Positions 5,190 through 21,705 of a stretch of 23,027 nt of DNA are shown piece after piece (the stretch's first letter is position 1; each line of letters begins with the position of its first letter). The notes under the pieces are model-generated. The model saw only the letters and a list, made by a program, of their open reading frames with translations, was not told the DNA's origin and did not search any database. This stretch comes from a virus. Where the stretch lies: IMG/VR virus record IMGVR_UViG_3300027861_004541, positions 1 through 23,027 of that record. One strand, 5' to 3'. The position numbers and the translations under genes were made by a program.

Positions 5190-5222
5190 TAAGAAAATCC
5201 TACTTTTTTTCCGATAAAATAA
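5190..5222 (+). promoter_or_regulatory. sigma28-like promoter before the membrane protein pair
   Basis: TCCGATAA at 5210-5217 closely resembles the FliA/WhiG-class -10 element GCCGATAA, and TAAG at 5190-5193 stands 16 bases before it, near the usual spacing of that class. A poly-T run precedes the -10, as in the other two candidates (near 7101 and 17496). A sigma70-like TATAAT at 5225-5230 without a good -35 is an alternative. The gene start at 5250 follows at a fitting distance with AAAAGGAG as ribosome binding site. Confidence 0.45.
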
Positions 5223-7092: not shown

Positions 7093-7141
7093 TTATTTTA
7101 TCGAAAAAATCTGCACTTTTCAATCTTTATTGATAAAATAA
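7093..7141. promoter_or_regulatory. divergent promoter-like inverted repeat (GATAAAATAA arms)
   Basis: TTATTTTATC at 7093-7102 and GATAAAATAA at 7132-7141 are a perfect 10-base inverted repeat. On the minus strand the first arm reads TTTTTTCGATAAAATAAG, which resembles the candidate before 5250 (TTTTTTTCCGATAAAATAA), and fits a promoter for the DUF5662-like gene; a TAAAG lies upstream. On the plus strand the second arm reads TATTGATAAAATAATA, facing the HNH gene. The two arms could be -10 elements of divergent promoters or a two-site operator. Confidence 0.4.
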
Positions 7142-7323: not shown

Positions 7324-8226
7324 ATGCCTAAAAAATTAACTTACGAATGCGTAAAAGAGTATTTTAACGATCATGGATGTGAGTTGTTAGAGAAAGAATA
7401 TAAAAATTGCAAAACTAAAATGAAATATAAATGCAACTGTGGGGATATTAGTGAGATAAATTTTGATAATTTTAAACAAGGGCGAAGATGCAAAAAATGT
7501 GCGAATACAAAACTTAGAAAAGATAGACAATTTTCTTTCCAATACGTTTATGACTATTTTGAGAAACAAGGTTGTAAGTTATTAGAAAAAGAATATATAA
7601 ATTCTCACACTAAAATGAAATATAGGTGTAAATGTGGAGATATAAGTGGAATCCGTCTATCTAATTTTAAATTAGGAGAAAGGTGTATGAAATGTGGAGG
7701 CAATGAGAAATTCACATTTAAATATGTTTATAATTATTTTAAAGAGCAAGATTGCGAATTGTTAGAAAAAAAATATATAAACTCAAAGTCATTAATGAAG
7801 TATCGATGTAATTGTAAAGATATTAATAAAATATCTTTTAGTGATTTTAAAGACGGACACAGGTGTAATAAATGTGGGATAAAAAGAACAACAGGAAAAA
7901 ATAACTATAATTATAACCCAAATTTAACTGACGAAGATAGAATTCTTAATAGAAAACTCCCTGGATATGAAGAATGGAGAAAAAAAGTATATAAAAAAGA
8001 TAATTACATCTGCCGAAAATGTAAAACAAAGAAAAATGATAATAACAAATATAAAAAAATAAATGCCCATCATATCAAAGGTTATGCCGATAATGAAGAC
8101 CTAAGAACAAAAGTTTCCAATGGGATAGTGCTATGCCAAGAATGCCACAATGGTTTTCACTCTATATATGGTAAACGAAATAATAATCAACAGCAATTAG
8201 ATGAGTATTTTAAAGTCCCTACCTGA
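7324..8226 (+). CDS. HNH endonuclease with three 54-residue Cys-rich repeats (probable homing endonuclease)
   Basis: A 300-residue protein. Residues 6-59, 71-124 and 131-184 are three copies of one module of exactly 54 residues, each starting (T/S)(Y/F)xxVxxYF, with a central CxC after KY(K/R) and ending in CxxC (56-59, 121-124, 181-184). Each probably holds one zinc ion and contacts DNA. Residues 220-285 form a Cys-flanked HNH nuclease: CRKC (230-233), AHHI (248-251), NG (266-267), CQEC..GFH (271-279). Repeated zinc modules joined to an HNH nuclease are typical of free-standing phage homing endonucleases. The gene sits alone between genes of opposite orientation, as expected for an insertion, with its own promoter-like site and leader. 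Its last 8 bases overlap the nadE end. Nuclease activity is inferred from the motif. Confidence 0.9.
   Translation: MPKKLTYECVKEYFNDHGCELLEKEYKNCKTKMKYKCNCGDISEINFDNFKQGRRCKKCANTKLRKDRQFSFQYVYDYFEKQGCKLLEKEYINSHTKMKYRCKCGDISGIRLSNFKLGERCMKCGGNEKFTFKYVYNYFKEQDCELLEKKYINSKSLMKYRCNCKDINKISFSDFKDGHRCNKCGIKRTTGKNNYNYNPNLTDEDRILNRKLPGYEEWRKKVYKKDNYICRKCKTKKNDNNKYKKINAHHIKGYADNEDLRTKVSNGIVLCQECHNGFHSIYGKRNNNQQQLDEYFKVPT
7339..7875 (+). repeat. three in-frame tandem copies of a zinc-module coding repeat
   Basis: Codons for residues 6-59 (7339-7500), 71-124 (7534-7695) and 131-184 (7714-7875) encode three 54-residue copies separated by 11 and 6 residues. Protein identity between copies is high (for example ELLEKEY, KLLEKEY, ELLEKKY) and the last copy has lost the Gly of the CxCGDI motif (CNCKDI). 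This indicates internal duplication followed by divergence. Confidence 0.85.
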
Positions 8227-8244
8227 TATATCTAGGAGGGACTT
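8213..8244. terminator. bidirectional terminator hairpin inside overlapping gene ends
   Basis: AAGTCCCT (8213-8220) pairs with AGGGACTT (8237-8244), and CCT (8222-8224) with AGG (8234-8236) across one bulged base. An ATTTTT run follows two bases later on the plus strand; the minus side is followed by TTTAAAAT. The hairpin lies exactly across the 8-base overlap of the convergent HNH and nadE genes, so it encodes the last residues of one and both stops. It could end transcription from both sides, though the T-tracts are short. Confidence 0.6.
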
Positions 8245-8986
8245 CATTTTTGAATCTTGCTTTCTTTACCATGGCTGAAACTTTATCAAATTCTTTCTGA
8301 GTTACATCTCCTTTATAATTGTCGTATCCTCCAAACTCTCCGTTATAGTGTCTCAATGTTAGGTCGAGACGGTCATACGTAATTCCAAGCTCGTCCTCAT
8401 CTGTTTGATTCTCAAAAAGATCAGCACTTGGTTTTTTTGTTATAATACTTTGAGGGATTTCTGGGATTAAGGATGCCATCTTAAAAATTTCTGTTTTATA
8501 GAAATTACCTATAGGTTCAACTGAACAAATTTGGTCTCCTCCGACTGTGCAATACCCAATTTCTAATTCACTCCTATTTCCAGTTCCCGCAACTAGATAA
8601 TTATACTGGTTTGCAAGAGCAAACAAATATGTCATCCTCAACCTAGCCTTAGTATTAGCTTTCGTTAATTGGCTAACGGTTTCTCCTCCTTCTTCTAATT
8701 TTTGTATAATAGCATTATAACTATCAACAAGATTAGATACTCTTAGCTCTATCCCTAAATTCTCTGCCAACTGAATACTGTCTTCTTCCATTGAAGGAGA
8801 ACTTTCACAAGGAAGATATATTCCTATAAATTTATCTCTTCCAACTGCTTCGCAGCAAAGAGACGATACGATTGCACTATCTATTCCTCCGCTAATACCG
8901 CAAATATACCCATCACATCCGCTATTTTTTTGGTACTCCAAAAGCCACTTACTTATATTATCTATTTCTTTTTGGTAATCAATCAT
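8219..8986 (-). CDS. nadE: NH3-dependent NAD+ synthetase
   Basis: A 255-residue enzyme that amidates nicotinate adenine dinucleotide to NAD+ with ATP and ammonia, the last step of both de novo and salvage NAD synthesis. The N-type ATP pyrophosphatase signature SGGIDS is at 32-37. GTGNRSE (134-140), a YCTVGGD stretch (145-151) and KKPSADL (184-190) match the NaAD/ATP binding segments of NadE. The length is normal for the ammonia-dependent form, and no glutaminase domain is present. The ATG at 8984-8986 has AAAGGA. It is the last gene of a five-gene minus-strand block with a 33-base gap before it. The enzyme appears complete. With pncB about 1.4 kb away it implies phage control of NAD+ supply; NadD, the step between them, is not in the window. 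Confidence 0.96.
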   Translation of the reverse strand: MIDYQKEIDNISKWLLEYQKNSGCDGYICGISGGIDSAIVSSLCCEAVGRDKFIGIYLPCESSPSMEEDSIQLAENLGIELRVSNLVDSYNAIIQKLEEGGETVSQLTKANTKARLRMTYLFALANQYNYLVAGTGNRSELEIGYCTVGGDQICSVEPIGNFYKTEIFKMASLIPEIPQSIITKKPSADLFENQTDEDELGITYDRLDLTLRHYNGEFGGYDNYKGDVTQKEFDKVSAMVKKARFKNEVPPRYIR

Positions 8987-9019
8987 TTTTATCCTTTCTA
9001 TTTGTTGTTAATTATTTTT

Positions 9020-9643
9020 TCAAAGATCTTCGTGATAGCCTATCGTGTCACAAAATTCTTTTATTAATTTATTTAATTCTTCTTTTGAAACTTTTACATT
9101 TTCTATATCTTTTTCTTCTCTTATCTCATGATCAAAGATAAAATCATCTATTATTGTCCATAATTCATTTCTTGGGTCTGTTTTTATTTTTTTAAAACTA
9201 TAATATAAAAGATCTTCTTTATACCAAACATAATATCCAAAATGCTCTGTCCAAATATATAAGAATTCTTCATCTTCTTCTATAAAAGAATATCTGAATA
9301 GAAAATCAGAACCGTCTAGATGCTTTGCCTTAGTAACTCCATTGAAAACTCCGCAATCTGATATCTTTTTACTATTTAAGTATTTTAATGCGTCTGTATA
9401 TGATTTTTGCTTATTAAGCATTTTATAGGGTTCTTCTAATTTTTTATAATCAACATTATAAACACATTCAGGAATGAATAATTGTTCATAATTTCTACAT
9501 TTAGGACATGTTAGAATAACTTTATCATCTAATTCTATAGGTTTTAGAATTCCTAGGCAATCATGGTCTCCACAAGTTAATTCATGAGTATAAGGAGATT
9601 TTTGCCACTTTTCAATATCTTTAATTTTGTCTTTATTCGTCAT
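9020..9643 (-). CDS. hypothetical protein with N-terminal zinc ribbon, 207 aa
   Basis: A 207-residue acidic protein. Residues 24-49 form a likely zinc ribbon: C24 and C29 (TCGDHDC) and C46/C49 (CPKC). The opening KWQKSPYTHELTCG resembles small phage and plasmid proteins of unknown function that begin with a similar Cys pattern; this is memory of a pattern, not a search. The remainder is rich in aromatic residues (about 110-165, including FLYIWTEHFGYYVWY) and ends in a Lys/Glu helix. The ATG at 9641-9643 overlaps the preceding gene by 11 bases and has AAAGGA inside that gene, so the two are probably translationally coupled. No function assigned. Confidence 0.75.
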   Translation of the reverse strand: MTNKDKIKDIEKWQKSPYTHELTCGDHDCLGILKPIELDDKVILTCPKCRNYEQLFIPECVYNVDYKKLEEPYKMLNKQKSYTDALKYLNSKKISDCGVFNGVTKAKHLDGSDFLFRYSFIEEDEEFLYIWTEHFGYYVWYKEDLLYYSFKKIKTDPRNELWTIIDDFIFDHEIREEKDIENVKVSKEELNKLIKEFCDTIGYHEDL

Positions 9644-9830
9644 TTTCTATTTCCTTTATATGTTCAAATCCCGTATCTTCGTTAGTCGTCCCATCGGTAA
9701 AGATGAAACGCATAATATCGTTATTACGAATTCCTCTATTAAAGACTAGATAGAAGTCTTTTATTATTTTTTCTTCTTCTTTGTAGAGGACCTTATCGCC
9801 CCTTACGATATTTTCGATATCTTTACTCAT
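9633..9830 (-). CDS. hypothetical small protein, 65 aa
   Basis: A 65-residue protein with the look of a small compact beta fold: VRGDKVLYKEEEKIIKDF, then a hydrophobic strand, then FIFTDGT-like IFTDGTTNEDTGF. It resembles small SH3/KOW-like phage proteins but no family is certain. Its ATG overlaps the TGA of the upstream 80-residue gene (ATGA, 9827-9830) and its end overlaps the next gene by 11 bases, so it sits tightly inside the operon, which supports it as a real gene. Confidence 0.7.
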   Translation of the reverse strand: MSKDIENIVRGDKVLYKEEEKIIKDFYLVFNRGIRNNDIMRFIFTDGTTNEDTGFEHIKEIENDE

Positions 9831-10069
9831 TTTTTAGTGTAACCTTTTCCTTTGCATTTTGGGCAATCTCGATATAACATATTAGCACAAGGGTTATGGT
9901 TAAGATTCCCATAACCATCTTCCACCCTTCCTGAACCTTTGCAGATAGAGCAGTCATCCATCACCTTTTCAACTTCTGCTATTTCCTCTTTAATCTCTGA
10001 AACTTCCGTTAGAGCATATTCTAAACCATCAGTCAATTCTCTATATCTTTTTTTAGAAACTTTAGTCAT
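9827..10069 (-). CDS. DnaJ-type CxxCxGxG zinc protein, 80 aa
   Basis: An 80-residue protein with a charged helical N-terminal half (about 1-38) and two copies of the DnaJ zinc-finger motif: CSICKGSG (40-47) and CPKCKGKG (69-76), separated by 21 residues. There is no J-domain, so this is not a DnaJ; free-standing pairs of this motif occur in many phage and bacterial small proteins and bind one zinc ion, often as a protein- or RNA-binding knob. It lies 12 bases after the preceding 64-residue gene and overlaps the next by 4 bases. Role in the nadE-containing operon unknown. Confidence 0.8.
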   Translation of the reverse strand: MTKVSKKRYRELTDGLEYALTEVSEIKEEIAEVEKVMDDCSICKGSGRVEDGYGNLNHNPCANMLYRDCPKCKGKGYTKK

Positions 10070-10081
10070 ATTATTCTCTTT

Positions 10082-10276
10082 TTAAATTATTTCTTTTAAT
10101 TTTTTTTCCATTATCTTAGAATTTACTCCAAAAGCGGAGAAGGCTAAGAAATGACCTTTTTCTTTATTTTTAGCCCAAACAAAAGGCATAGGAGTTATCA
10201 TTCCGGATTTTCTTTGTTCTTCCCAATAGAGTTCTTCTGCTAATTCGAATAATTTTTCTAATTTTTTCTTTGTCAT
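10082..10276 (-). CDS. hypothetical small protein, 64 aa (first gene of the nadE operon)
   Basis: A 64-residue protein with an amphipathic Lys/Glu/Leu helix (about 2-25), a middle segment MITPMPFVWAKNKEKGHFLAFSAFG and a second basic helix at the C-terminus. No Cys, signal peptide or membrane helix. It is the first gene of the minus-strand block 10276-8219, with the TTGCTGGAA-type element 25 bases upstream of its start. I recognise no family. Confidence 0.65.
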   Translation of the reverse strand: MTKKKLEKLFELAEELYWEEQRKSGMITPMPFVWAKNKEKGHFLAFSAFGVNSKIMEKKLKEII

Positions 10277-10301
10277 ATTAATTATAGAATTTATTTTATT
10301 T

Positions 10302-10328
10302 TTGCTGGAAAATTAATCTTTATTTTTT
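10302..10328 (-). promoter_or_regulatory. TTCCAGCAA box upstream of the nadE operon
   Basis: On the minus strand the sequence reads AATAAAGATTAATT followed by TTCCAGCAA, 25 bases before the first start codon of the block. The same arrangement (AATAAGATAATC, then AATTCCAGCAA) stands before pncB at 11667-11695. Within window intergenic DNA I see the 9-base core only in these two places. It may be a shared operator or part of a shared promoter class; a TATAAT (minus strand, just before the start) is also present but lacks a -35 at proper distance. Confidence 0.35.
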
Positions 10329-10348
10329 AAAAAAATTATATATTTTTT

Positions 10349-10360
10349 TAAGTATACTTA
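10349..10360. promoter_or_regulatory. 12-base palindrome TAAGTATACTTA
   Basis: TAAGTATACTTA is a perfect palindrome in the 120-base gap between the pncB stop and the nadE operon start, about 70 bases upstream of the latter. It is the only GC-containing symmetric site in this gap and could be a repressor operator. No second copy was noticed. Confidence 0.3.
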
Positions 10361-10396
10361 GGAAAAGGATGGAAATGTTTTAAAATATAAATCTTA

Positions 10397-11611
10397 TTAA
10401 TCCAAAGATTGATTAAAGAACGTCCATTTAGCAACCCTAATAGCATCTTTATCTCCCATAGCCTTAGAAGGAGTATCGCTAAGTTTAACAACGGGAATGC
10501 CATTTATACTCCAAAGTTTAATTACCATATTCAAAGAAGGACTATCTGGGATATTATTTGTCATAAATGTTCCTATTCCAAAAGAACATTTTATTTTTCC
10601 TTCGCAATATTTCTTAATATCAATTGCTTTTTCTATATTGAGTCCATCTGAAAATACAATTACTTTACTCATTGGATCTATGTTCATTTTTTTATAATGA
10701 TTAACAATCTTATCTGTAAATTCGAAGGGACAACCGCTATCATGTCTTACTCCGTCATAATTTTTAGCTAATTCTAGGGTAAAATTTTCTAGAAAAACGT
10801 CAGTCCCATACGTATCCGTTAAGGCAATTCCTAAATTAGACCCAAACACTCTTTTCCAATTATGCATAGTATAATAATTCGAGTTCCTTAGCCCTTCAAG
10901 TACGCTCATTCCCATACAAAGTTCATGAGCATAGGTTCCGATTGCTTTAATATTATATTTCATAGCAAAATATAAATTACTGGTGCCTACGAAAGAAGAA
11001 TTAGAATTATTTTTCTCATATTCTACGAACTGATTGATAACTAAATCTTGAATTTCATGAGATCTACGCCTGCGAGTTCCAAATTCTGCAAAGGTACAAC
11101 CACTATTAGAAAGTTCTTCTATTTTTTCGTATGCCAAAGTCTTTTGATTAATATTAACCCAATCAAGACCATCCATCCCATTAGGTCCTTTTTTAATCCA
11201 ATCGGTATCAATATATCTAAAATATAGCTCAGATATAATAGCCATTATTTTAACTTCGTACAAGATGTAATCAACCCATTTTCCTGTATATTCTAATTCT
11301 AAATCGTTATCTTTTGTAAGATTTATCTTGAAACCCGAAAAATCATATCTAAAATTTCTTAGATATTCCACAAAACCAGGGGTAAAATATTTAAAATTAT
11401 TTTTAAGCCAAAGATATTCTTCATTAGTTAGTCTTAATTTTTCCAATTCTTTAATTTCCTTTTTAAGCAAATTTAGGAATTCTTCATTAAATTTTTGTTT
11501 TCCCCTGTTTTTGAATTTATAAGTAGCAATAGCATTTGGAAAAAGCTCCAAAACACAATTCATCATACTAAACTTATAAAGGTCATTATCTAATACACTT
11601 TTAATTATCAT
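10397..11611 (-). CDS. pncB: nicotinate phosphoribosyltransferase
   Basis: A 404-residue enzyme converting nicotinate and PRPP to nicotinate mononucleotide, coupled to ATP hydrolysis; the entry step of the Preiss-Handler salvage route. Length equals that of the Escherichia coli type. I see the family opening (VLDNDLYKFSM, 6-16), FGTRRRRS (177-184), GTSNLYFA (209-216), the TYAHEL segment whose H229 corresponds to the His phosphorylated in characterised enzymes, DTYGTD, VRHDSGCP and the phosphate-binding end FGIGT. It looks complete. The ATG at 11609-11611 has AAAGG. It is a single-gene unit, followed after 120 bases by the nadE operon on the same strand. The upstream TTGCTGGAA-containing element is shared with that operon. 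Confidence 0.96.
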   Translation of the reverse strand: MIIKSVLDNDLYKFSMMNCVLELFPNAIATYKFKNRGKQKFNEEFLNLLKKEIKELEKLRLTNEEYLWLKNNFKYFTPGFVEYLRNFRYDFSGFKINLTKDNDLELEYTGKWVDYILYEVKIMAIISELYFRYIDTDWIKKGPNGMDGLDWVNINQKTLAYEKIEELSNSGCTFAEFGTRRRRSHEIQDLVINQFVEYEKNNSNSSFVGTSNLYFAMKYNIKAIGTYAHELCMGMSVLEGLRNSNYYTMHNWKRVFGSNLGIALTDTYGTDVFLENFTLELAKNYDGVRHDSGCPFEFTDKIVNHYKKMNIDPMSKVIVFSDGLNIEKAIDIKKYCEGKIKCSFGIGTFMTNNIPDSPSLNMVIKLWSINGIPVVKLSDTPSKAMGDKDAIRVAKWTFFNQSLD

Positions 11612-11666
11612 TGTTTGCCTTTCTATTAATATATTGTTTACATTTCTCTTATAAATAAATTATATC

Positions 11667-11698
11667 TTGCTGGAATTTTTGATTATCTTATTTTTTAT
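11667..11698 (-). promoter_or_regulatory. TTCCAGCAA box upstream of pncB
   Basis: TTGCTGGAA on the plus strand at 11667-11675 (minus TTCCAGCAA), preceded on the minus strand by AAAAAATAAGATAATC. The pair resembles the element before the nadE operon over about 30 bases, with small gaps. On the minus strand the box runs into GATATAAT, so it may lie between a -35 region and a sigma70 -10, 55 bases before the pncB start. Confidence 0.35.
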
Positions 11699-11702
11699 TA
11701 TT

Positions 11703-11761
11703 CCACTTTGCAAATTTTTTTTATTTTCATTAATTTTTTATTAAATAAAAATTGAAAGTGG
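11703..11761. repeat. CCACTTT / AAAGTGG inverted repeat around the sigma gene promoter
   Basis: CCACTTT at 11703-11709 and AAAGTGG at 11755-11761 are inverted copies 45 bases apart, in the divergent space between pncB and the sigma factor gene. The right copy overlaps the sigma70-like -35 TTGAAA and the left copy lies next to TTGCAA, which could act as a -35 for the leftward gene. Paired sites of this kind can be looping operators; the A/T tracts between them also align loosely. Confidence 0.35.
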
Positions 11762-11779
11762 TAGTTTTAATAATATAAT
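11752..11779 (+). promoter_or_regulatory. sigma70-like promoter for the sigma factor operon
   Basis: TTGAAA (11752-11757) and TATAAT (11774-11779) are 16 bases apart, the best sigma70-type match I see in the window. Transcription would start near 11786, about 30 bases before the ATG at 11817 with AAAAGGAG at 11803-11810. This fits host-polymerase (early) expression of the phage sigma factor and the downstream metabolic genes. Confidence 0.55.
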
Positions 11780-11816
11780 AATAGGTATATTATTATATTA
11801 TTAAAAGGAGCTACTT

Positions 11817-12665
11817 ATGAACAAAAAAACAACAGACGATAATATTGAATTATGGAAAGAATATCAAAAAGATAAAGACAGTTTAGAAATTAAGAATAAA
11901 TTATTAGAAACGTATTATCCGTTAGTCCAAAAAATCTCTTATAAAATGGCAGAAAGGATGAATTGGAAAGTCCCTCCTGATGAACTAGCTTCATTTGGGG
12001 TTGATGGGTTATATCGGGCGGTTGAAAAATTTGAACTTGAAAGAGGCTTAAAATTCTCAACTTATGCCAATATAAGAATACAAGGATCAATGATAGATGG
12101 ATTAAGAAAAGAAGATCGAATCCCCAGAAGCGTAAGAATAAAGTATAATAAGATAGAAGAAGCAAGGCAACAACTACAATCAGAAAAATGTAGAAAAGTT
12201 TCTGACGAAGAATTATTAAAACATTTAGATATCGATATTACTGATTATTATAAAAATAATAAGAAATATGTCCCAACGTCTGCTTTTAGTATTGATGTTA
12301 TCTATTCTGAAGATGGAAGTTCTGATAAATACTCTAATATTAAGCAAGATTGTAATTCTAATTTTATTGATTGCTCTACTGAACCTCCCCAAAATAAAAT
12401 TTTAAGAAAAGAATTTTTAAGCAAGTTAATTGGGAAAGATTTTTCTAAAATAGAAGCTAAAATTATATATAAATATTTCTACGATAATTGTACAATGGAA
12501 AATATAGCTAAAGATATTGGCATGTCTGAATCTAAGGTTAGCAAGATCTATAATGAAGTTATACCCAGGATTAAAGATAAAATATTGAGAAATCCAGAGT
12601 ATTTCGACAATATAAACTATATAGTAGAAAATTTTAAAAACAACGAAAATATCAAAAATCATTGA
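11817..12665 (+). CDS. FliA/WhiG-type (sigma28 family) RNA polymerase sigma factor
   Basis: A 282-residue sigma factor of the group 3 (FliA/WhiG/SigF) type. Region 2 spans about 25-105 and includes KFELERGLKFSTYANIRIQG (71-90) and SMIDGLRKEDRIPRSVR (91-107), almost diagnostic for this group: -10 recognition and melting. A region 3-like helix pair follows (about 108-150), then an Asp/Ser-rich linker, and region 4 with a helix-turn-helix TMENIAKDIGMSESKVSKI (226-244) for -35 recognition. All parts of a working sigma appear present; it has about 30 extra residues at the end. It heads a plus-strand operon and is preceded by a sigma70-like promoter. Family members read TAAA-N15-GCCGATAA, and similar elements occur upstream of 5250, 7055 (minus) and 17514, so it probably directs later phage transcription. 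Confidence 0.93.
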   Translation: MNKKTTDDNIELWKEYQKDKDSLEIKNKLLETYYPLVQKISYKMAERMNWKVPPDELASFGVDGLYRAVEKFELERGLKFSTYANIRIQGSMIDGLRKEDRIPRSVRIKYNKIEEARQQLQSEKCRKVSDEELLKHLDIDITDYYKNNKKYVPTSAFSIDVIYSEDGSSDKYSNIKQDCNSNFIDCSTEPPQNKILRKEFLSKLIGKDFSKIEAKIIYKYFYDNCTMENIAKDIGMSESKVSKIYNEVIPRIKDKILRNPEYFDNINYIVENFKNNENIKNH

Positions 12666-12680
12666 AAAGTGTAATTATTT

Positions 12681-13184
12681 ATGTTAATAGTTAAAAATGG
12701 TGATATTACATACCCTAAGTCAGAAGTATTAGTCTGCCCTTGTAATCTATGTGGAATTTTGAATAAAAATTATTCTGCAAAAATTATTAAGTCTGGGGGG
12801 AACTTGTATAAAAATATCAAGAAAGAAATTAAAAAAAATGATTTTAAAGTCGGGGATTGTTTCTCGACAGGAGCTTACCAGTTAAGAAGAAGAAGTGTAA
12901 AAAATATATATAGTACTATCTTGTCAAGATACCCTAATGATTTCATAAAAATAGATAATTTAACATTATGTTTAAATAACATATTTAAAGAAGCTCTAAA
13001 AAATGATATTCAATCTATTGCTATTCCTCCTTTAGGGACAGATAATTTAGAATATGAATTTGTTGCGATAAATATGTTAAAAATATGTAAGAATTATCAA
13101 AGGGTAATGGATATAAAAATCATCTCTGATGATTTAGACTTTATAAATGTTATGAAAAAGTACATTGAAGTGAAAGGAAAATAA
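12681..13184 (+). CDS. macrodomain (ADP-ribose-binding fold) protein
   Basis: A 167-residue protein with the macrodomain layout: MLIVKNGDIT (1-10), a strand ending in the substrate-loop segment VCPCNLCGIL (18-27) where the family has VNxxN, AKIIKSGG (33-40), GDCFSTGAYQL (57-67), and SIAIPPLGTDN (111-121) as the phosphate-binding loop. Macrodomains bind ADP-ribose, and several remove it from proteins, nucleic acids or ADP-ribose-1''-phosphate. The Gly-rich run after the Asn is replaced by NKNYS; the overall pattern is nearer to the DarG/ALC1-like branch (CNxxGxxxKxxA) than to the classical one, so hydrolase activity is uncertain. It starts 15 bases after the sigma gene without a clear ribosome binding site, and its TAA shares one base with the next ATG. 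It may act on ADP-ribosylation or ADP-ribose signals made by host defence. Confidence 0.8.
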   Translation: MLIVKNGDITYPKSEVLVCPCNLCGILNKNYSAKIIKSGGNLYKNIKKEIKKNDFKVGDCFSTGAYQLRRRSVKNIYSTILSRYPNDFIKIDNLTLCLNNIFKEALKNDIQSIAIPPLGTDNLEYEFVAINMLKICKNYQRVMDIKIISDDLDFINVMKKYIEVKGK

Positions 13185-13759
13185 TGAAAAAAATATTAGA
13201 TAGAGAAGTTTTAATCCTAAATAAGTCTTGGAATCCAATTAGAATCCAGACAGTTATAGATGCTCTCACTTTAGTATATAGAAAAAGAGCAGCTTTCATT
13301 GATGTCGATAATTATGAAGTCAATGGATGGGATGATTGGGCTAAGACTCCCCCAAAAGAAGGAGAAGAATATATAACAACTTCTCACTTTTCTTTAAGAA
13401 TTCCAAAAGTTATTGTTCTAACTCATTTTAATGATATTCCTGTTTATAAAGTGAATATTAATAAAAAATCAATCTTTGAAAGGGACGGATATATCTGTCA
13501 ATATTCGGGTAAGAAAGTATCTTTAAAGAGTGGTAATTTAGATCATATTAAACCGAAATCTAAAGGAGGAAAAAGAAGTTGGGAAAATATAGTCTGTTGT
13601 GATGCTAAAGTTAATTCTTTTAAAGATAATAGAACTCCAGAAGAAGCAGGTTTAAAATTATTGAAGAAACCTACAAAATTAGACTACAGAAAGACTGTTT
13701 TGACGTATAAAGAAGGGATGCCTGAAGAATGGAAAAACTTCCTAAAAGAAAAAAAGTAG
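13184..13759 (+). CDS. HNH endonuclease family protein with altered zinc ligands
   Basis: A 191-residue protein of the common HNH family that opens VLILNKSWNPI (9-19). The HNH core runs from IFERDGYICQYSG (97-109) through LDHIKPKSKGG (119-129, D120/H121 as catalytic pair) and WENIV (133-137, N135) to NSFKDNRTPEEAG (144-156). In the usual family the core is held by two CxxC pairs; here the second Cys of the first pair is Ser108 and the second pair reads CCDAKVN (138-144), so the structural zinc site is mostly lost. Zinc-free relatives with CQYTGK exist, so activity can be retained. The ATG overlaps the preceding TAA by one base and has AAAGGA. It may be a homing nuclease or a DNA-processing enzyme. 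Confidence 0.88.
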   Translation: MKKILDREVLILNKSWNPIRIQTVIDALTLVYRKRAAFIDVDNYEVNGWDDWAKTPPKEGEEYITTSHFSLRIPKVIVLTHFNDIPVYKVNINKKSIFERDGYICQYSGKKVSLKSGNLDHIKPKSKGGKRSWENIVCCDAKVNSFKDNRTPEEAGLKLLKKPTKLDYRKTVLTYKEGMPEEWKNFLKEKK

Positions 13760-14418
13760 ATAATTATCCTAAAAAATGGGGAATGTCTTTGAAAGATGTT
13801 CCCTGTTTTATTATAGGTAATGGACCTTCCCTAGAGAAACAATTATCCCCCAATAATAGATCTATCTTAGAAAATCTATTCACAATAGGAATTAATAGAT
13901 CTTTTTACAAAATGGATACTACTATTCTTCTATGGCAAGATATGAGTTTATGGTATTCTGAAAGAAAACAAATCGCTAAACAAAAATCTATAAAATTTTG
14001 CAGAGATCATGCGGATCCTCAAAAAAAGTTTTTTCATTTTAAACTTTCTGGAAAAGAACCTAAACTAGTTAATAATCCCGATAAGCTATATGGGAGAGGA
14101 ACGTCTGGGGTATTAGCTTTCGAACTAGCTTATTCATTAGGTTGTGATCCAATAATTTTATTAGGAATGGATTGTCAATATAATGATGGAAAAACAGATT
14201 TTTATGGAAAAAATCCTATGCACAATGAAAAAACTCTACCTAATTGCGTTAAGGGATTAGAATGGGTCAAAAATTGCAACTCTGGAAGAAAAATTATAAA
14301 CTGTTCTAGAAATAATGTTTTTGATAGTGAAAATAAACTAGATAAAATATTAGTAAATATGAATAAGATTTACACTAGGAAAGAATTAGAAACTAAAATT
14401 TTTAAAAATATGGAGTAA
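13729..14418 (+). CDS. DUF115/MptE-like Rossmann-fold protein
   Basis: A 229-residue protein with features of the DUF115 (6-hydroxymethylpterin diphosphokinase MptE-like) group: CFIIGNGPSLEK (26-37) as a nucleotide-binding loop, TIGINRSFY (52-60), YGRGTSGVLAFELAYSLG (121-138) and IILLGMDCQY (142-151). Relatives include archaeal MptE, Maf-type flagellin-modifying proteins and sugar-transferring enzymes of phages, so the substrate cannot be told. The first ATG at 13729 lies 31 bases inside the HNH gene; a second ATG at 13783 (residue 19, next to the conserved core) would remove the overlap but has no better ribosome binding site. It sits in the operon between the HNH and RNR genes, with nine bases to the latter. 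Confidence 0.7.
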   Translation: MEKLPKRKKVDNYPKKWGMSLKDVPCFIIGNGPSLEKQLSPNNRSILENLFTIGINRSFYKMDTTILLWQDMSLWYSERKQIAKQKSIKFCRDHADPQKKFFHFKLSGKEPKLVNNPDKLYGRGTSGVLAFELAYSLGCDPIILLGMDCQYNDGKTDFYGKNPMHNEKTLPNCVKGLEWVKNCNSGRKIINCSRNNVFDSENKLDKILVNMNKIYTRKELETKIFKNME

Positions 14419-14427
14419 TAAGAAAAG

Positions 14428-16920
14428 ATGTCAAAAGATAATTACCAGAAAGTAGAAGATCTATTAGTTAAGATATTAAATGATGAAATTTATACATACG
14501 AAACAGCGTTAAAAGATAGTACTGATTATTTTAAAGGGGATGATTTGGCTGCTAAAGTTTTTGTAGATAAATATGCCTTAAAAAATAAAGAAGGGTATAT
14601 ATTAGAGAACACTCCTAAAAAAATGCATCAAAGATTGGCTAAAGAATTTGCACGAATAGAAGCGAAATATGAAAACCCTATGTCAGAAGAAGAAATTTTT
14701 AATTTAATTGACAATTTCGAATATATCATTCCTCAAGGTTCTCCAATGAGTGCAATTGGAAATCCTTTCCATATCCAAAGTTCAGGTAATTGTTTCTCGA
14801 TAGAACCTCCTTACGATAGCTATGGAGGTATTTTTTACTCAGATCAACAATTAGCTCAATTAATGAAAAGACGTTGTGGGGTAGGGATGGGACTAAGCAC
14901 CCTAAGACCTAAGGGACTAGTTGTTAACAACGCTGCTAAGACTACAGATGGAATTGGAGTCTTCATGGAACGTTATAGTAACACTTGCAGAGAAGTTGCC
15001 CAAAACGGACGTAGAGGAGCCGAAATATTACTTCTAAACGTCCATCATCCAGAGATTAGAACTTTTATTAATATAAAAAGAGATAAGACTAAAGTTACTG
15101 GAGCAAACATTTCAATACAAGTTACAGATGAGTTTTTAAATGCTGTCAAGAATGATGATGAGTTCGAATTAAGGTGGCCGGTAGAAGGAACACCATCTAT
15201 TTCTCAAAAAGTTTCTGCAAAAGAAATATGGGATAACTTCATTGAATCAAGTTGGGAATCTGCTGAGCCTGGACTTTTATTCTGGGATACAGTTATCAAA
15301 AATAGCGTATCGAATAATTATGGAAAAATAGATAAGTCCTTCTATGATACAGCATGTAATCCTTGCGGAGAAATTGTTATGGGATCGGATTCATGTAGGC
15401 TTCTGGCTATTAATCTCTATTCTTTTGTTGAGAACAAATTTAAAAATAATGCTAAATTTAATTTTAAGAAATTTTCAGAGATGGTTCAAAAAGCTCAAAG
15501 AATGATGGACGATATGGTAGATCTTGAAATAGAATTAATAACTAAAATTTTAGAAAAAATTGATTCAGATCCAGAACCTGAAAACATAAAATTTATAGAA
15601 AAAGAAACTTGGCAGAAACTATTAAACACATGTATTAATGGAAGAAGAACAGGATTAGGCATAACAGGTTTAGGAGACACATTAGCTTCTTTAAATATAA
15701 CATATGGATCTAGTAAGTCGATTAAAATGACAGAAAAGATTTATAAAAATTTATGTCTTAATGCTTATAAAAGTACAGTTATATTAGCGAAAGAAAGAGG
15801 AACTTTTCCTATATTTTCCCATGAGATAGAAAAAGATATTAATTTCTTGGATAAAATTTGGAAAGAAGATCCTGAATTATTTGAATTATATAAAAAATAC
15901 GGTAGAAGAAATGTCGCCTTAACAACAACTCCTCCTGCAGGGTCTATTTCTATAGAAGCTCAAGTAACTTCTGGGATAGAACCTGTATTTATGGTAAAAT
16001 ATAAAAGACGAAAAAAGATAAACCCAAGTGATATTAATCCAAGAGTTGATTTTGTAGATGATAATGGAGATTCTTGGCAAGAATTTGATGTTTATCATCC
16101 TGGCTTTAGGCAATGGATGGATATAACAGGAAAAACTAATATTGAAGATTCTCCATATTATAAAGCTACTTCAAATGATATTGATTGGGTAGCTAGTGTA
16201 GATCTTCAAGCCGCAGCTCAAAAATGGATTTGTCATGCTATATCTAAAACTTGCAACTTACCAAACGATGCGACTAAAGAGCTAGTGGCGGAAGTATATA
16301 TGAGAGCTTGGGAAAAGGGATGCAAAGGCTTTACTGTTTATAGAGACGGATGTAGAACTGGAGTTTTAGTGAGCGAAGAGGCAACAGGCGATGACGAAAA
16401 TCATATTATCCAAACAGATTCTCCAAAAAGACCTAAAACTTTACCTTGCGACATCTATCATCCTACGGTAAAAGGTCAAAAATATTTTGTTATTATCGGT
16501 CTATTGAACGGTAAAGAGCCATATGAAGTTTTTGCGGGAAGAGGATGCCATGTCCCTCAGGATATTAAAAAAGCTTCTATAAAGAAACAAAAAAGAGGGG
16601 TTTACCGTCTATGTGACATAGAAGATGATAATAAAACAATCTATGAAAATATTTCATCTAATATTGACGAAGAGCAAGAAGCTATTACGAGATTAATTTC
16701 TGCTTCCCTAAGACATGGATGTAGTATCGATTTTATAGTCCATCAATTAGAAAAGACAGAAGGAGATTTAATGGGATTTGCAAAAGCTGTTTGTAGAATT
16801 CTTAAAAAGTATATTTCAGATAACTCAGCGGTAAGCGGAGAAGAATGCCCAGAATGTAAAGGGAAATTAATAAGAATAGAAGGATGTATTCAATGCACCT
16901 GTGGTTTCTCCAAATGCTAA
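14428..16920 (+). CDS. nrdJ: adenosylcobalamin-dependent (class II) ribonucleotide reductase
   Basis: An 830-residue enzyme that reduces ribonucleotides to deoxyribonucleotides. Key residues are visible: C122 (GNCFS), NPCGE at 311-315 with C313 and E315, C323 in the SCRLLAINL segment completing the redox pair, RRTGLGITGLGD (406-417), TTPPAGSIS (500-508) and KGFTVYRDGCR (633-643). There is no N-terminal ATP-cone, and no small radical subunit gene lies nearby, which fits a class II enzyme using vitamin B12 coenzyme as radical source. A long C-terminal extension (about 665-830) includes a TSCPD-like part and ends in CPEC...CxxCxCGFSKC (807-830), a zinc-ribbon/redox tail seen in long NrdJ forms. 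Host or medium must supply cobalamin. The ribosome binding site is weak. dUTPase follows after 36 bases. Confidence 0.95.
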   Translation: MSKDNYQKVEDLLVKILNDEIYTYETALKDSTDYFKGDDLAAKVFVDKYALKNKEGYILENTPKKMHQRLAKEFARIEAKYENPMSEEEIFNLIDNFEYIIPQGSPMSAIGNPFHIQSSGNCFSIEPPYDSYGGIFYSDQQLAQLMKRRCGVGMGLSTLRPKGLVVNNAAKTTDGIGVFMERYSNTCREVAQNGRRGAEILLLNVHHPEIRTFINIKRDKTKVTGANISIQVTDEFLNAVKNDDEFELRWPVEGTPSISQKVSAKEIWDNFIESSWESAEPGLLFWDTVIKNSVSNNYGKIDKSFYDTACNPCGEIVMGSDSCRLLAINLYSFVENKFKNNAKFNFKKFSEMVQKAQRMMDDMVDLEIELITKILEKIDSDPEPENIKFIEKETWQKLLNTCINGRRTGLGITGLGDTLASLNITYGSSKSIKMTEKIYKNLCLNAYKSTVILAKERGTFPIFSHEIEKDINFLDKIWKEDPELFELYKKYGRRNVALTTTPPAGSISIEAQVTSGIEPVFMVKYKRRKKINPSDINPRVDFVDDNGDSWQEFDVYHPGFRQWMDITGKTNIEDSPYYKATSNDIDWVASVDLQAAAQKWICHAISKTCNLPNDATKELVAEVYMRAWEKGCKGFTVYRDGCRTGVLVSEEATGDDENHIIQTDSPKRPKTLPCDIYHPTVKGQKYFVIIGLLNGKEPYEVFAGRGCHVPQDIKKASIKKQKRGVYRLCDIEDDNKTIYENISSNIDEEQEAITRLISASLRHGCSIDFIVHQLEKTEGDLMGFAKAVCRILKKYISDNSAVSGEECPECKGKLIRIEGCIQCTCGFSKC

Positions 16921-16956
16921 GCCACAAATAAATTATAATTTTAAAAAAAGGAAAAT

Positions 16957-17400
16957 ATGATAAAAGTTAAAAAATTACATCAAGATGCTGTTTTACCTCA
17001 AAAAGCTAATGAAAAAGACGCTGGATATGATTTAGTAGCTATTTCTGATCCAGAAATAAAGTATGATAATGATAACGTTCTTTATATACAATATAAAACT
17101 GGAATAGCTATTGAGCCCCCAGAAGGATATCATACTGAAATCTATCCTAGATCTTCTATTAGTAAGTATAATCTTCAATTATGCAATAGTTTAGGTTTAA
17201 TAGACGAACCATATAGAGGGGAAATTATATTAAGATTTAACTTAATAGGCTCTAAAAGAGTAGGAGCTAAAGTATATGCAAAAGGCGACAAGATAGGACA
17301 ATTGGTTATAAAAAAAACTATATCTATGGATTTTATAGAAGTTGAAGAATTAGAAGAAACCAGTAGAGGAACTGGAGGCTTCGGATCTAGCGGAAAATAA
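16957..17400 (+). CDS. dut: dUTP diphosphatase (trimeric dUTPase)
   Basis: A 147-residue enzyme hydrolysing dUTP to dUMP and pyrophosphate, which keeps uracil out of DNA and feeds dTMP synthesis. All five motifs of the trimeric family are present: DAGYDL (21-26), PRSS (64-67), GLIDEPYRG (80-88 with catalytic D83), GDKIGQL (110-116) and the Gly-rich C-terminal arm RGTGGFGSSG (137-146). Normal length, no insertion. The ATG is preceded by AAAGGAAAAT. It closes the metabolic operon that starts with the sigma factor: the strong terminator at 17430 follows after 29 bases. Partner to the class II RNR just upstream. Confidence 0.97.
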   Translation: MIKVKKLHQDAVLPQKANEKDAGYDLVAISDPEIKYDNDNVLYIQYKTGIAIEPPEGYHTEIYPRSSISKYNLQLCNSLGLIDEPYRGEIILRFNLIGSKRVGAKVYAKGDKIGQLVIKKTISMDFIEVEELEETSRGTGGFGSSGK

Positions 17401-17429
17401 TTTCAAAAAAATAATAAAAAATAGAATTT

Positions 17430-17465
17430 AAAAAGCCCTATATATTAATTTATTTAGGGCTTTTT
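17430..17465. terminator. strong intrinsic terminator after dut
   Basis: AAAAAGCCCTA (17430-17440) and TAGGGCTTTTT (17455-17465) form a perfect 11-base-pair stem with a 14-base loop, with the A- and T-tracts built into the stem so that it can stop transcription from both directions. It separates the sigma/RNR/dUTPase operon from the late block and isolates the promoter-like element at 17474-17503. Confidence 0.9.
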
Positions 17466-17473
17466 GTTTATTT

Positions 17474-17507
17474 TAAAGGTTTTTCTCCTTTTTTTGCCGA
17501 AAATAAT
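17474..17507 (+). promoter_or_regulatory. sigma28-like promoter at the head of the late block
   Basis: GCCGAAAA at 17496-17503 matches the FliA-class -10 GCCGATAA at seven of eight bases, with TAAAG at 17474-17478 upstream; the spacing of 18 is two to three bases longer than usual. A T7 run precedes the -10, as at 5204-5210. It follows the terminator directly. The ATG at 17514 is so near that the message would be almost leaderless; a weak AAAGAT lies just before the ATG. Confidence 0.45.
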
Positions 17508-17513
17508 AAAGAT

Positions 17514-19361
17514 ATGGCTATAAACAAAGAAAATTTTATTATTGTATATGTTTTGGAAGATTCTATTATATCTGATAGTGAGTCTTTCGCTAATTATTAT
17601 GCAAATATTCACGATATGGACACAACCTCCAATAATCCTTCTGGGAATAGCGGAACAACTTCTGAAGGTATATACTGGCAGGTTGATGGTCAAAAAGTTG
17701 GGATAAAAATGGAAGATACTTCTGAAATATTATCAGAAGGAACTTTTAATAAGAATTTATTAAATCCCTTAAGAGAAGCGTTATCTTCAAGTGATCTACT
17801 AGATATGAATGTGTGGGGTATTGTTCTAGGGTATAAAATTCCTGGAGGTTATAATCTAAATTCTAATAATATAATATCCTCTACGTCTCGCATATCTAGA
17901 ATAAATCATACCTTCTCCGCCAAATATGAAAATGAATTATTTAATAGAAAAGTTTTTAGTCGTTTTGACTCTTCTGATGCAGAAAAGGCATTAATTGTTT
18001 CCAGAATTGATGCTCCTAATTTGTTATTAGCGAAGCAATTTGTAAATAATGCTGAGATAGCTAATAAACAATTATTTGCTAATGGAATTTTTTATATTGA
18101 TCCTTATTCTGACAAGATAGGATCTAAAGCCGATGATTATACGGATTTAATGCTAGAATTTTCTAACCTAACTTTGCCTTCGCTAAATTTATCTATTTAT
18201 AGTACTTCTTTTATCGACCCTTATATAGATTCTATTATTCCTTTCGTAAATGATGACTCTTTTACGTGGTCTTGGTTTACAGATAGAGCTTCATCGTCTT
18301 TCTTTAGAAAAAGCAATGCGATTAGAGGGTTTTTCTATAATGCCGATTACGATGGTGGATTTACTATGAGAGATGTATCTAGCAATAGATGGCCTTTTTT
18401 AGCTATGGACGCAGGTTATATAGCGACAGCAGGGGCGATGTCTAATCCGTCTATAGAGGGATTGTTAAATTTACGTCCATTTTTCGAATCTCTTAAAAAC
18501 GGATCAACGATAGGCGAAGCCATGATCTTTAGCACTCCCTTCTTAGATTGGACAATATCATTTTTCGGAGACCCTTTAGTGAAAATATTTTTTCCTGCTC
18601 AGGAAGAAGTAGATAGCGGATTAATAGACGAGAATGAGTCATGGAGATTACAGTCGATAGACCTTTCAAGAAATATGTCATATCTTTACAAGAAAGAAAA
18701 AGAGACTGAAGAAGCTTTTCAGTTAGTGGTAGACACCCAAAATATAGAAATAGAAGAAGCGTTATTAGATAAAACTAATCAATTATTTAAGAATAATAAA
18801 GAAGAAAACAGAAAAAGCCAGTTAATAGGATTAGTTGAAAAATTCATAGAATATCCTCAAAGACAGAATTTATATACAGGTTTATCCAAGGCAACACCTG
18901 ATATTAATGATTACTTATCGGAAGAGGAATATAAATTGAGCGAATTAATAACAGAAGTTGTTAATTTCCAAAACCCAATAGACTCCGAAAATATTTTAGA
19001 AGAAGGTTATTGGGAATTCGAATTTGAGTTACTGCAGCAATCATCAACATTTGCTTTTTACAATTTTAGATTACTAGTTTCTGATGATAAAGATTTCTTA
19101 AATATAATTTTTAATATTAGCAGCGAAAACGGACAAATAGGGAATTGGCTCTACGAAAAAGAAGAAAATGAATTTATTCAATTGTTAGCGAATGGAATTC
19201 CTTCTAATTTTAAAGGAAGAAGGATTAGATACCAAAGCAAAACAAATCAATTTTTAAACAGAGGGCAAGTATATTACTTCAAGATTACTCAAGTCTTTGA
19301 TGACGGAAACAATACACAAGTCTTCTCTCCAAGAATATTTAAAGATATTATTTGGACATAG
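17514..19361 (+). CDS. TIGR03790-like (caspase/gingipain-like fold) protein with C-terminal beta domain
   Basis: A 615-residue protein. The first 360 residues follow the TIGR03790 family: NFIIVYVLEDSIISDSESFANYY (7-29), VWGIVLGYKIPGGY (100-113), ALIVSRIDAPN (159-169), NGIFYID (190-196), AGYIATAGAMSNP (300-312), FFESLKNGSTIGEAMIFSTP (323-342) and WTISFFGDPLVKIFFP (346-361). That family is of unknown function and is thought to share a C25-peptidase/caspase-like fold; I see no clear catalytic His-Cys pair here. Residues about 370-470 are charged and helical. Residues about 480-610 look like a fibronectin/Ig-like beta sandwich (FEFELL, FRLLVSDDKDF, VYYFKITQVF), a type common in virion and surface proteins. 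There is no signal peptide. It is the first gene of the late block, 31 bases before a gene leading to terminase, so a virion role is likely. Confidence 0.75.
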   Translation: MAINKENFIIVYVLEDSIISDSESFANYYANIHDMDTTSNNPSGNSGTTSEGIYWQVDGQKVGIKMEDTSEILSEGTFNKNLLNPLREALSSSDLLDMNVWGIVLGYKIPGGYNLNSNNIISSTSRISRINHTFSAKYENELFNRKVFSRFDSSDAEKALIVSRIDAPNLLLAKQFVNNAEIANKQLFANGIFYIDPYSDKIGSKADDYTDLMLEFSNLTLPSLNLSIYSTSFIDPYIDSIIPFVNDDSFTWSWFTDRASSSFFRKSNAIRGFFYNADYDGGFTMRDVSSNRWPFLAMDAGYIATAGAMSNPSIEGLLNLRPFFESLKNGSTIGEAMIFSTPFLDWTISFFGDPLVKIFFPAQEEVDSGLIDENESWRLQSIDLSRNMSYLYKKEKETEEAFQLVVDTQNIEIEEALLDKTNQLFKNNKEENRKSQLIGLVEKFIEYPQRQNLYTGLSKATPDINDYLSEEEYKLSELITEVVNFQNPIDSENILEEGYWEFEFELLQQSSTFAFYNFRLLVSDDKDFLNIIFNISSENGQIGNWLYEKEENEFIQLLANGIPSNFKGRRIRYQSKTNQFLNRGQVYYFKITQVFDDGNNTQVFSPRIFKDIIWT

Positions 19362-19376
19362 ATAGAGGAACAGAAC

Positions 19377-19790
19377 ATGCCAACAGACTTTCAATCTTTT
19401 TATAAAACTTTATCTGATCTATTAGCGGATATTCACGATAATGGAGACGATTTAAACGATACGATATTATCAATGCAAAATTATCTTGAGATATCAGATA
19501 TCTCTCCTAACAATGCTAATAAAGTTCAATTATTAGGCAAAATTAATCAAGTCAAAAATGATATAAACAAAAGACATGAAACCCCTACTCAAACATTGCT
19601 AAATGTTGTATTAAGTTTTCAATTATTAGTAGGACAAACTAGCGAAGAAGTTAACGAGTATCTACAGGCTGAGGGGATAAAAGTTAAATGTTCTTTTGCG
19701 TACTTGTCTTCTTTAGTTGGTTATATAATCGATATAGAAAATATAGAAGATGTAGAATACTGCGATATATTTTTTGAAGTAGGAGAATAA
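19377..19790 (+). CDS. hypothetical protein upstream of terminase, 137 aa
   Basis: A 137-residue acidic, mainly helical protein. Residues 1-75 are polar helices (FQSFYKTLSDLL, LNDTILSMQNYLE, KVQLLGKINQVKNDI), residues 80-105 a hydrophobic helix pair (TLLNVVLSFQLLV), and the end is strongly acidic. The ATG has a good AGAGGAA site and the stop lies one base before the terminase TTG, so translation is probably coupled. The place directly before a large terminase gene is often that of a small terminase or neck protein, but I see no helix-turn-helix or other small-terminase signature, so this stays a hypothetical protein. Confidence 0.8.
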   Translation: MPTDFQSFYKTLSDLLADIHDNGDDLNDTILSMQNYLEISDISPNNANKVQLLGKINQVKNDINKRHETPTQTLLNVVLSFQLLVGQTSEEVNEYLQAEGIKVKCSFAYLSSLVGYIIDIENIEDVEYCDIFFEVGE

Positions 19791-19791
19791 T

Positions 19792-21705
19792 TTGGCAAAA
19801 AAACAAAAAAAAGGTGAAGATTTAAATAGCATTTTATCCGAAATGCAACAAAATATTTTAGACATAAGCGATGATGGGAAAAAAGATATCCCTGATATTA
19901 TTACTTTTTGTGAAGGCGAAGATTGGTTGGCTCTTCCTTACGGATCAAATCCTATAAAATTATATCCTGTTCAGAAATTGATATTAAAAGTTTTTTACAG
20001 AGGGACAATTGGTAATAAAAATATAACACTAACTGAACAGGAAATAAAATTATGCGAGAAATTAGGACTAGTCGATAAGGAAAAAGGAGATGTATTAGGT
20101 AAATATAATAATAAAACTATTTTTGATCAATTAGTATTAGTATGGGGACGAAGGGCTAGTAAGGACTTCTTAGTATCTTTAATAGCAACTTACGAATCAA
20201 TGAAATTATTAGAATGCGAAGGTGGAGACCCATATGTTCTTTACGAACTTTCTCCCGCTAATACAATTAATATTCTAACAATAGCAAACTCGACCTCTCA
20301 GGCGGGTTTAGCTTTTACAGAAATCAAATCAAGGATTTTAAATTCTCCTTATTTTGCTGATAAATTCATCCAAGAAGGATTAACAGCGTCAGCTTTTTAT
20401 CTTTTAACTCCTAAAGACAAGGAAGATAATAAATATTTTAAATCTAAAAAAATGCCTATTAAGAAAGGATCTGTTGGGATTATTGTTGGGCATAGTAACT
20501 CAGACTCTCTTTTAGGACAAGGATGTATAGTTCTTATTCTTGATGAAGTTGCGACTTATAAGCAAACAGGAGGGGCCTCATCAGGAGATAGGATATACGC
20601 TGCTTTGACACCTACATTAAGTACTTATTGTAGAAAAACTTATAAAACGGATGAGAATGGAGATTTTATTTTAGACGAGAATGGTCAAAGAGTTATAACT
20701 CATAGGCAATATGATGGTAAAACTATTAGTATTTCGTCCCCAAGAGGTAAAGAAGGAAAATTCTACAATCTTTTTACTACTGCTGATGAAAGTCCTAAGA
20801 GGTTGGCGTGTCGGCTCCCGACATGGGAAGTGAACCCGACTCATACAAGAGAATCTTTAAGACTTCAACATATAGATATGACGGATGAAGAATTTATGAT
20901 GGAATTTGGAGCAGAGTTTAGCGGAACGGCAGGTCAAAACTTCTTTATAGCAGACTATGTTGATATGTGTTTTGATAATAGTCTAGAGAATGTATCTTCT
21001 GGGACTCGTGGAAATAAATATTTTGCTCATTTAGATCCTGCCACTAGTAGCCATAACTATGCGTTAGTTATTGTTCATAGAGAGTATTATATAAATCAAG
21101 ATACAAAAAAAATGGATTATGTAATTGTAGTAGATCATATGAAGCATTGGCATCCATTGCCCGGAAAACCTATTCAAATAGATGAAGTCGATAATTATGT
21201 AGTTGGGTTAAAAAGAAAATTTCCTTTGGCTATGATTACTTACGACCAATGGAATCATCAATCTAGCGTTCAAAAATTAAAAAAAGCTGGAATTCCTCAT
21301 AAACTAACTCAATTTGGGCAACGACATAAATGTGCTATTTACAATGAATTAGAACAATTAGTTAATATGGGAAGATTAATAATTCCTTATTATTCTCTTC
21401 TAAAATCAGAAATGTGTGAATTACAAAGAAAATATACCCCTAATGCGTATAAAGTTTATCCTATGACTGACGGAGATGGATCAAAAACAGATGATGTTGT
21501 CGATTGTTTAGCTGGAGCGTGTTTTGCGGCTCAAAATTATACTATTAATCAATTACCAAAGGGAAGGCTAGTTTCAAGTCCTTGCGGAGGTATTGAGCAG
21601 AACATAACTTGGAGGTCTATGCAAGGAACTCCTTATGGGACCGGACCTGGACAAAGAGTTGCTATGGCTCTAGAAAAGAGATCTCTTGCCTATGGAGGAA
21701 GATAA
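19792..21705 (+). CDS. terL: terminase large subunit (DNA packaging ATPase/nuclease)
   Basis: A 637-residue packaging motor protein that pumps DNA into the prohead and cuts it. ATPase part: Walker A-like WGRRASKDF (118-126, K124), Walker B CIVLILDEVA (245-254, D251/E252), coupling motif SSPRG (315-319). The Walker A is unusual: Asp125 stands where Ser or Thr is normal. Nuclease part, RNase H-like: HLDPATSSHNYALV (413-426, D415), ITYDQWN (482-488, D485) and KTDDVVDCLAG (565-575, D567/D568/D571). The length is normal for T4-like and jumbo-phage TerL. It starts with TTG at 19792, with GGAG seven bases upstream; the next ATG would cut off about 17 residues. It lies inside the late block and is the main evidence that this is a tailed phage. 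Confidence 0.95.
   Translation: MAKKQKKGEDLNSILSEMQQNILDISDDGKKDIPDIITFCEGEDWLALPYGSNPIKLYPVQKLILKVFYRGTIGNKNITLTEQEIKLCEKLGLVDKEKGDVLGKYNNKTIFDQLVLVWGRRASKDFLVSLIATYESMKLLECEGGDPYVLYELSPANTINILTIANSTSQAGLAFTEIKSRILNSPYFADKFIQEGLTASAFYLLTPKDKEDNKYFKSKKMPIKKGSVGIIVGHSNSDSLLGQGCIVLILDEVATYKQTGGASSGDRIYAALTPTLSTYCRKTYKTDENGDFILDENGQRVITHRQYDGKTISISSPRGKEGKFYNLFTTADESPKRLACRLPTWEVNPTHTRESLRLQHIDMTDEEFMMEFGAEFSGTAGQNFFIADYVDMCFDNSLENVSSGTRGNKYFAHLDPATSSHNYALVIVHREYYINQDTKKMDYVIVVDHMKHWHPLPGKPIQIDEVDNYVVGLKRKFPLAMITYDQWNHQSSVQKLKKAGIPHKLTQFGQRHKCAIYNELEQLVNMGRLIIPYYSLLKSEMCELQRKYTPNAYKVYPMTDGDGSKTDDVVDCLAGACFAAQNYTINQLPKGRLVSSPCGGIEQNITWRSMQGTPYGTGPGQRVAMALEKRSLAYGGR

Follow-up and report, generated by a model that had tools for sequence, protein, structure and literature searches.

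We present evidence that an uncultured giant phage encodes a divergent relative of the FliA/WhiG-type sigma factors, and that this factor probably steers host core RNA polymerase towards sigma28-like promoters in phage DNA. The sequence analysed, referred to here as the window, is a complete IMG/VR virus record of 23,027 bases with no longer genome behind it, and carries genes for an intein-bearing UvsW-type helicase, NAD synthase, NAPRTase, the sigma factor, a macro-domain protein, HNH, an MptE-like protein, the RNR large subunit, a dUTPase and the terminase large subunit. Our explanation draws on homology, synteny, motif enrichment, a fixed -35 spacing, recurrence of sites at orthologs and negative controls. 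In the mechanism we propose, host sigma70 would read the phage sigma gene, whose product is probably made early; the phage sigma factor would join the host core RNA polymerase and direct it to sigma28-like phage promoters; and these would drive packaging and virion gene runs (the terminase operon and a portal-containing run) as well as some other genes. Some of the promoters abut the start codon, and the mRNAs made from them would be leaderless.

The sigma gene occupies positions 11817-12665 on the plus strand and encodes 282 aa in which Pfam regions 2, 3 and 4 are matched (region 4 at a score 2 bits under its cut-off) and region 1.1/NCR is absent, which bears out its earlier description as a complete group 3 sigma factor. 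Its best NCBIfam matches are WhiG (8e-48) and then the FliA/WhiG profile TIGR02479 (E=2e-43), and the FliA/WhiG profiles far outscore those of SigF/SigG. With the sigma family profile, WhiG (3e-51) and FliA (6e-44) stand ahead of the next class, SigF-type (2e-21), full-length WhiG/FliA matches ranging from 1e-33 to 3e-51, and WhiG and FliA also head the PDB ranking. Since the TIGR02479 score of 148.7 bits lies under the curated cut-off of 189.6 bits, and the protein is also under the curated NCBIfam cut-off for WhiG, we term it a divergent FliA/WhiG-type relative and not a certified member. In a midpoint-rooted tree with no outgroup the phage sigma factors form a separate clade with support of 99/99, and the closest neighbour of the window sigma factor is its sister from a 548-kb contig, G013. 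Judged by its profile matches and its clade, the product of 11817-12665 is a phage-adapted FliA/WhiG (sigma28)-type sigma factor. It resembles E. coli FliA (sigma28), B. subtilis sigmaD and Streptomyces WhiG in domain content and finds its best sequence matches among them, but it is viral, belongs to a separate clade, has no flagellar context and falls under the NCBIfam cut-offs. Named phage records yielded no sigma relative exceeding 33% identity; several Bacillus phage sigma factors (SPO1 and others, SigF/SigG-like) match at 23-27% identity.

Single-protein scans for close relatives of the sigma factor and of the terminase returned none, and alignment-based searches were required. These scans found 14 further IMG/VR contigs with full-length sigma relatives, 12 of them distinct (three share identical match scores). 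Twelve contigs, about 1.4 Mb together and including G013, were analysed whole; genes in them were called by a simple ORF-picking procedure, which will have misplaced some start codons. For statistics we used the window and ten contigs, excluding G005 and G008 as near-duplicates of G006 and G007, and G017 because its sigma match is split in two pieces. The sigma factors of the 12 distinct contigs are syntenic and form a monophyletic clade, and these contigs have in common the gene order NAPRT / sigma-macro-HNH-MptE-RNR-dut-g17514-TerL, with losses. We note that NAD synthase and NAPRTase, of NAD salvage, adjoin the macro-domain protein in the window (8219-11611, minus strand, and 12681-13184) and remain close to the sigma gene in several of the relatives. 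An HNH endonuclease at 7324-8226 is 78% identical to its G013 counterpart, most shared genes being about 30-59% identical, which suggests recent transfer, and the UvsW-type helicase gene (747-5132, minus strand) is split by a LAGLIDADG-domain intein, its orthologs in G003 and G004 being shorter and 40-41% identical. MT835847.1 (L003) and related records with FliA matches (also L004), deposited as Bacteriophage sp., look like bacterial flagellar/chemotaxis operons by their ORF lengths, and the sigma factors of L009 and L004 group with Lachnospiraceae in the tree; we therefore did not count these records as phages. The huge phages LR745206, LR756500 and LR745208, which have RNR or TerL matches and sigma-like genes, served only as controls.

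Host control of the sigma gene is suggested by a near-consensus sigma70-like promoter, TTGAAA-N16-TATAAT, at 11752-11779 on the plus strand, where the preliminary description had placed one; it matches at 11 of 12 positions, the top sigma70 score within 11612-17520, and a Shine-Dalgarno sequence, AAAGGAG, can be read at 11804-11810 (plus strand). The sequence TTGAAAAGTG also sits upstream of the G013 sigma gene. The sigma genes of G007 and G008 have instead GCCGATAAT 24 nt upstream of the start, suggesting that the factor may be autoregulated in those contigs. The block that follows the sigma gene (macro domain, HNH, MptE-like, RNR large subunit and dUTPase; 12681-17400, plus strand), whose order is kept in relatives, ends at a predicted intrinsic terminator (17429-17466, plus strand; -16.9 kcal/mol, z -4.26). 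A strong terminator had been proposed near 17430, directly before a late promoter, and the hairpin is indeed followed at once by the candidate promoter at 17474. By eye, G014 and G015 likewise have hairpin-like inverted repeats with T runs behind them at the equivalent position.

Three motif sites in the window had been put forward as promoters for the phage sigma factor, and all three sequences are present: GCCGAAAA at 17496-17503, TCCGATAA at 5210-5217, and TCGATAA on the minus strand from 7104. The first forms part of a sigma28-like promoter, TAAAGG...GCCGAAAA (17474-17503, plus strand), before the terminase operon, with a predicted 5' UTR of just a few nt and related elements at orthologs; it is the sole exact match in the window, on both strands, to TAAAG-N18-YCGAWAA, a pattern composed with this site in view and so not an independent test. 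The second belongs to the putative promoter TAAGA...TTTCCGATAA (5190-5217, plus strand), which has a T at -22 of CGATA and precedes a pair of plus-strand membrane protein genes, A (5250-5615; 121 aa, 55% identical to G013 58485-58850) and B (5658-6551; 297 aa); at the G013 ortholog of this locus, GACGATAT stands 12 nt ahead of the start. The third precedes a minus-strand gene at 6552-7055 whose DUF5662 assignment held up (PF18907, 4.5e-29). This 7104 site falls within TTGAAAAGTGCAGATTTTTTCGATAAAAT, that is, a TTGAAA-N17-TAAAAT element (7095-7123, minus strand) overlapping CGATAA and of a type common in the 548-kb relative; it is therefore ambiguous, and more simply explained as a sigma70-type promoter. 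The variable spacing to the upstream TAAG that had been pointed out is also seen: from the T of the -35 element to the C of CGATA it is 22 nt at 5190 and 24 nt at 17474, the latter 2 nt longer than the family mode.

The window alone could not have shown that these sites are a signal. GCCGATAA with at most one mismatch occurs 18 times, against 11.0 +/- 2.75 expected, mostly within genes, and two upstream sequences contain CGATA, against 1.3 expected. Counts so near chance would suit a reading in which AT-rich DNA yields such sites by coincidence and no phage genes are controlled by the sigma factor; they also led us to test the idea in relatives. Pooled over the statistics set, CCGATA occurs upstream of genes 41 times, against 9.8 expected from shuffles (Poisson p 9e-14), and it is not enriched in 22 control phage stretches (6 versus 4.7 expected), some of which come from one phage and two of which overlap. 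In most contigs taken singly, the words enriched upstream of genes include CCGATA, CGATA or a -10 variant; G015 has no CCGATA and G014 and G016 have one each, G016 and G014 having GACGATA and GGCGATA in its place. Sites also recur at orthologous genes (14 pairs versus 6.6 expected, p 0.003, the pairs not being fully independent). Against this family-wide enrichment, the negative controls and the recurrence, we consider chance matching very improbable. Motif enrichment across genomes, on which the preliminary description had staked its central idea of a phage FliA-type sigma factor reading sigma28-like phage promoters, is thus found in the relatives and supports that idea.

What the sites look like when aligned bears on which factor might read them. 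Around CGATA there is T at -3, G or T at -2, C at -1 and T-A-A-A-G at -22 to -18, and in an unbiased scan of all 5-mers at offsets 8 to 40 (33 offsets) variants of TAAAG with one mismatch rank top at -22, the exact word occurring there 6 times against 0.73 expected (p 1e-4). The -35 element is weak, being exact in 6 of 114 sites, four of them in one contig (G013). The family promoter overall is TKCCGATATAATA with a weak TAAAG -35, its T lying 22 nt before the C of CGATA, and the family consensus is TAAAG, N16, TKCCGATA, from which single sites vary. An EM motif search run without constraints settled instead on CCCTGA and CCAGAC, more abundant elements found in G003 and G013, and we discarded the window scan made with it. 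The consensus fits the FliA/WhiG criterion TAAA-N14-16-GCCGATAA, and we infer that it is paired with the phage sigma factor; as read from the aligned sites, it is a bipartite sigma28 consensus that emerges in the phage family with one extra spacer base. The phage -10 element also drifts from that of FliA, sigmaD and WhiG, to TCCGATAT, GACGATA or CGAAA. Among the sigma factors compared in one study, sigma28 contacts the -35 element least (PMC10216364), which fits the weak -35 in the phage family.

It might be supposed that a different phage regulator acts at CGATA together with host sigma70, the phage sigma factor reading something else. AT-rich tracts beside CGATA often resemble a sigma70 -10 element, the 7104 site overlaps TTGAAA-N17-TAAAAT, and TATCG, the reverse complement, likewise recurs at orthologs more often than expected (11 versus 3.5). 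We think this improbable, however, because the motif and TAAAG at one fixed spacing amount to the sigma28 bipartite consensus, which emerged without being imposed, and because a peak in the distance of CGATA from the start codon, at 12-14 nt, fits a -10 element at a leaderless start. In 19 of 144 cases the start follows CGATA at a distance of 12-14 nt, against 2% for permuted words (p 1e-10), and a Shine-Dalgarno sequence is absent in 18 of these 19 and in 508 of 1091 others (p 2e-5), a comparison in which the motif itself partly fills the space concerned. From a -10 element so placed transcription would begin on the start codon or no more than a few bases from it, suggesting that these genes may have leaderless mRNAs.

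B. subtilis sigmaD and Streptomyces WhiG read the same promoter consensus as E. coli FliA, and it is conceivable that the CGATA promoters are those of the sigma28/sigmaD of the host, and that the phage copy only adds dose or displaces it, for example to alter host motility or development. The consensus of E. coli FliA itself is TAAAGTTT-n11-GCCGATAA (PMC2859248), and some phage sigma factors are known to change how the host develops (PMC9429907). Nevertheless, the sigma gene belongs to the syntenic core of a divergent phage clade, and the promoter type is enriched in the genomes of these phages and not in control phages; we regard use by a host sigma28 as unlikely. The phage sigma factor is most likely a specificity switch for the host polymerase.

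The genes behind the sites suggest what such a switch would serve. Sites lead the terminase operon in the window and in G013, G001, G003, G014 and G015; in the window this operon comprises, all on the plus strand, a 615-aa TIGR03790-like gene, which comes first (17514-19361), a 137-aa gene (19377-19790) and the terminase large subunit (19792-21705; phrog_9 1.4e-11, orthologs 45-59% identical); downstream of the terminase gene, on the same strand, lies a 309-aa gene kept across the family (21809-22738). Orthologs of the 17514 gene in these five contigs have an AAGG-type element some 23 nt ahead of CGAA, which replaces CGATA at the terminase-operon sites, and no such site was found in front of the orthologous operons of G016 and G006. 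One G013 site heads a gene run that holds a portal gene, another precedes a 63-kb run of giant genes, and the portal genes of G003 and G004 likewise have sites upstream (the portal was identified as phrog_16240, 1.5e-46 for the G004 ortholog). From these genes (terminase, portal and giant-gene run) we infer late timing for the sigma28-like promoters. Site-bearing genes beyond virion genes include a glycosyltransferase-like gene; an S8-protease operon was dropped as a candidate capsid operon, its leading gene in several relatives being glycosyltransferase-like by a conserved motif. We also note that several conserved proteins downstream of the terminase (L257 and orthologs; alignments A5, A6 and A8) share a KTAQ/KSAQ-like stretch near an FNLKK-type sequence, a possible signal for processing or targeting.

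A programme of two steps, as first proposed, is too simple, for the relatives have, besides additional ECF-like sigma genes, further promoter classes that are more numerous, and more than two steps would be expected. On the minus strand of G003 (L105-L113), 112-173 kb, a rigid element, CCCTGA-N10-AAAGTTCTAA, occurs over 50 times, in many cases immediately ahead of a small gene; this is probably a second promoter class, and G003 has a second sigma-like gene at 170729-171217. In G013 (L256-L283), dozens of TTTTCCAGAC elements, most of them located at 154-187 kb and 217-227 kb, are followed about 18 nt on by a TATAGAATA-like sequence; this contig also has a CTTGAAAAGTGAAAG sigma70-like class and three short ECF-like sigma genes.

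Like the late sigma factor gp55 of T4, the window sigma factor is phage-encoded and would be expected to turn host polymerase towards late genes, but it has regions 2-4, including region 4, and a -35 element to go with them, whereas the gp55 type is short and has no -35-reading region 4; the T4-type late promoter TATAAATA showed no consistent enrichment across the phage family. SPO1 and other Bacillus phages likewise use sigma factors for sequential gene classes, but theirs, being sporulation SigF/SigG-like, are of another subfamily. Most jumbo phages are without an RNA polymerase of their own (PMC13282480), and that such phages (group 2 in PMC7824862) use sigma factors is already known as a general idea (PMC7824862, PMC13282480); they too are large phages expected to recruit host core with a sigma factor of their own, but their factors are described as minimal HTH or RpoD-like, unlike the FliA-type factor here. 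In the literature searched we found neither a FliA-type phage sigma factor with a matched genome-wide promoter set nor the leaderless class. Whether a huge-phage family, with at least one 548-kb contig, uses a flagellar-type sigma factor as a dedicated packaging and virion switch, alongside other promoter classes and ECF-like sigma factors and with many leaderless promoters, is a proposal that we rate evenly balanced. Gene timing in jumbo phages is largely unmapped, and here the sigma factor, its promoter consensus and spacing, and the terminase/portal gene set can be read from sequence. Uncultured phages may thus yield a directly testable transcription programme together with a class of start-codon-abutting promoters whose mRNAs would be leaderless.
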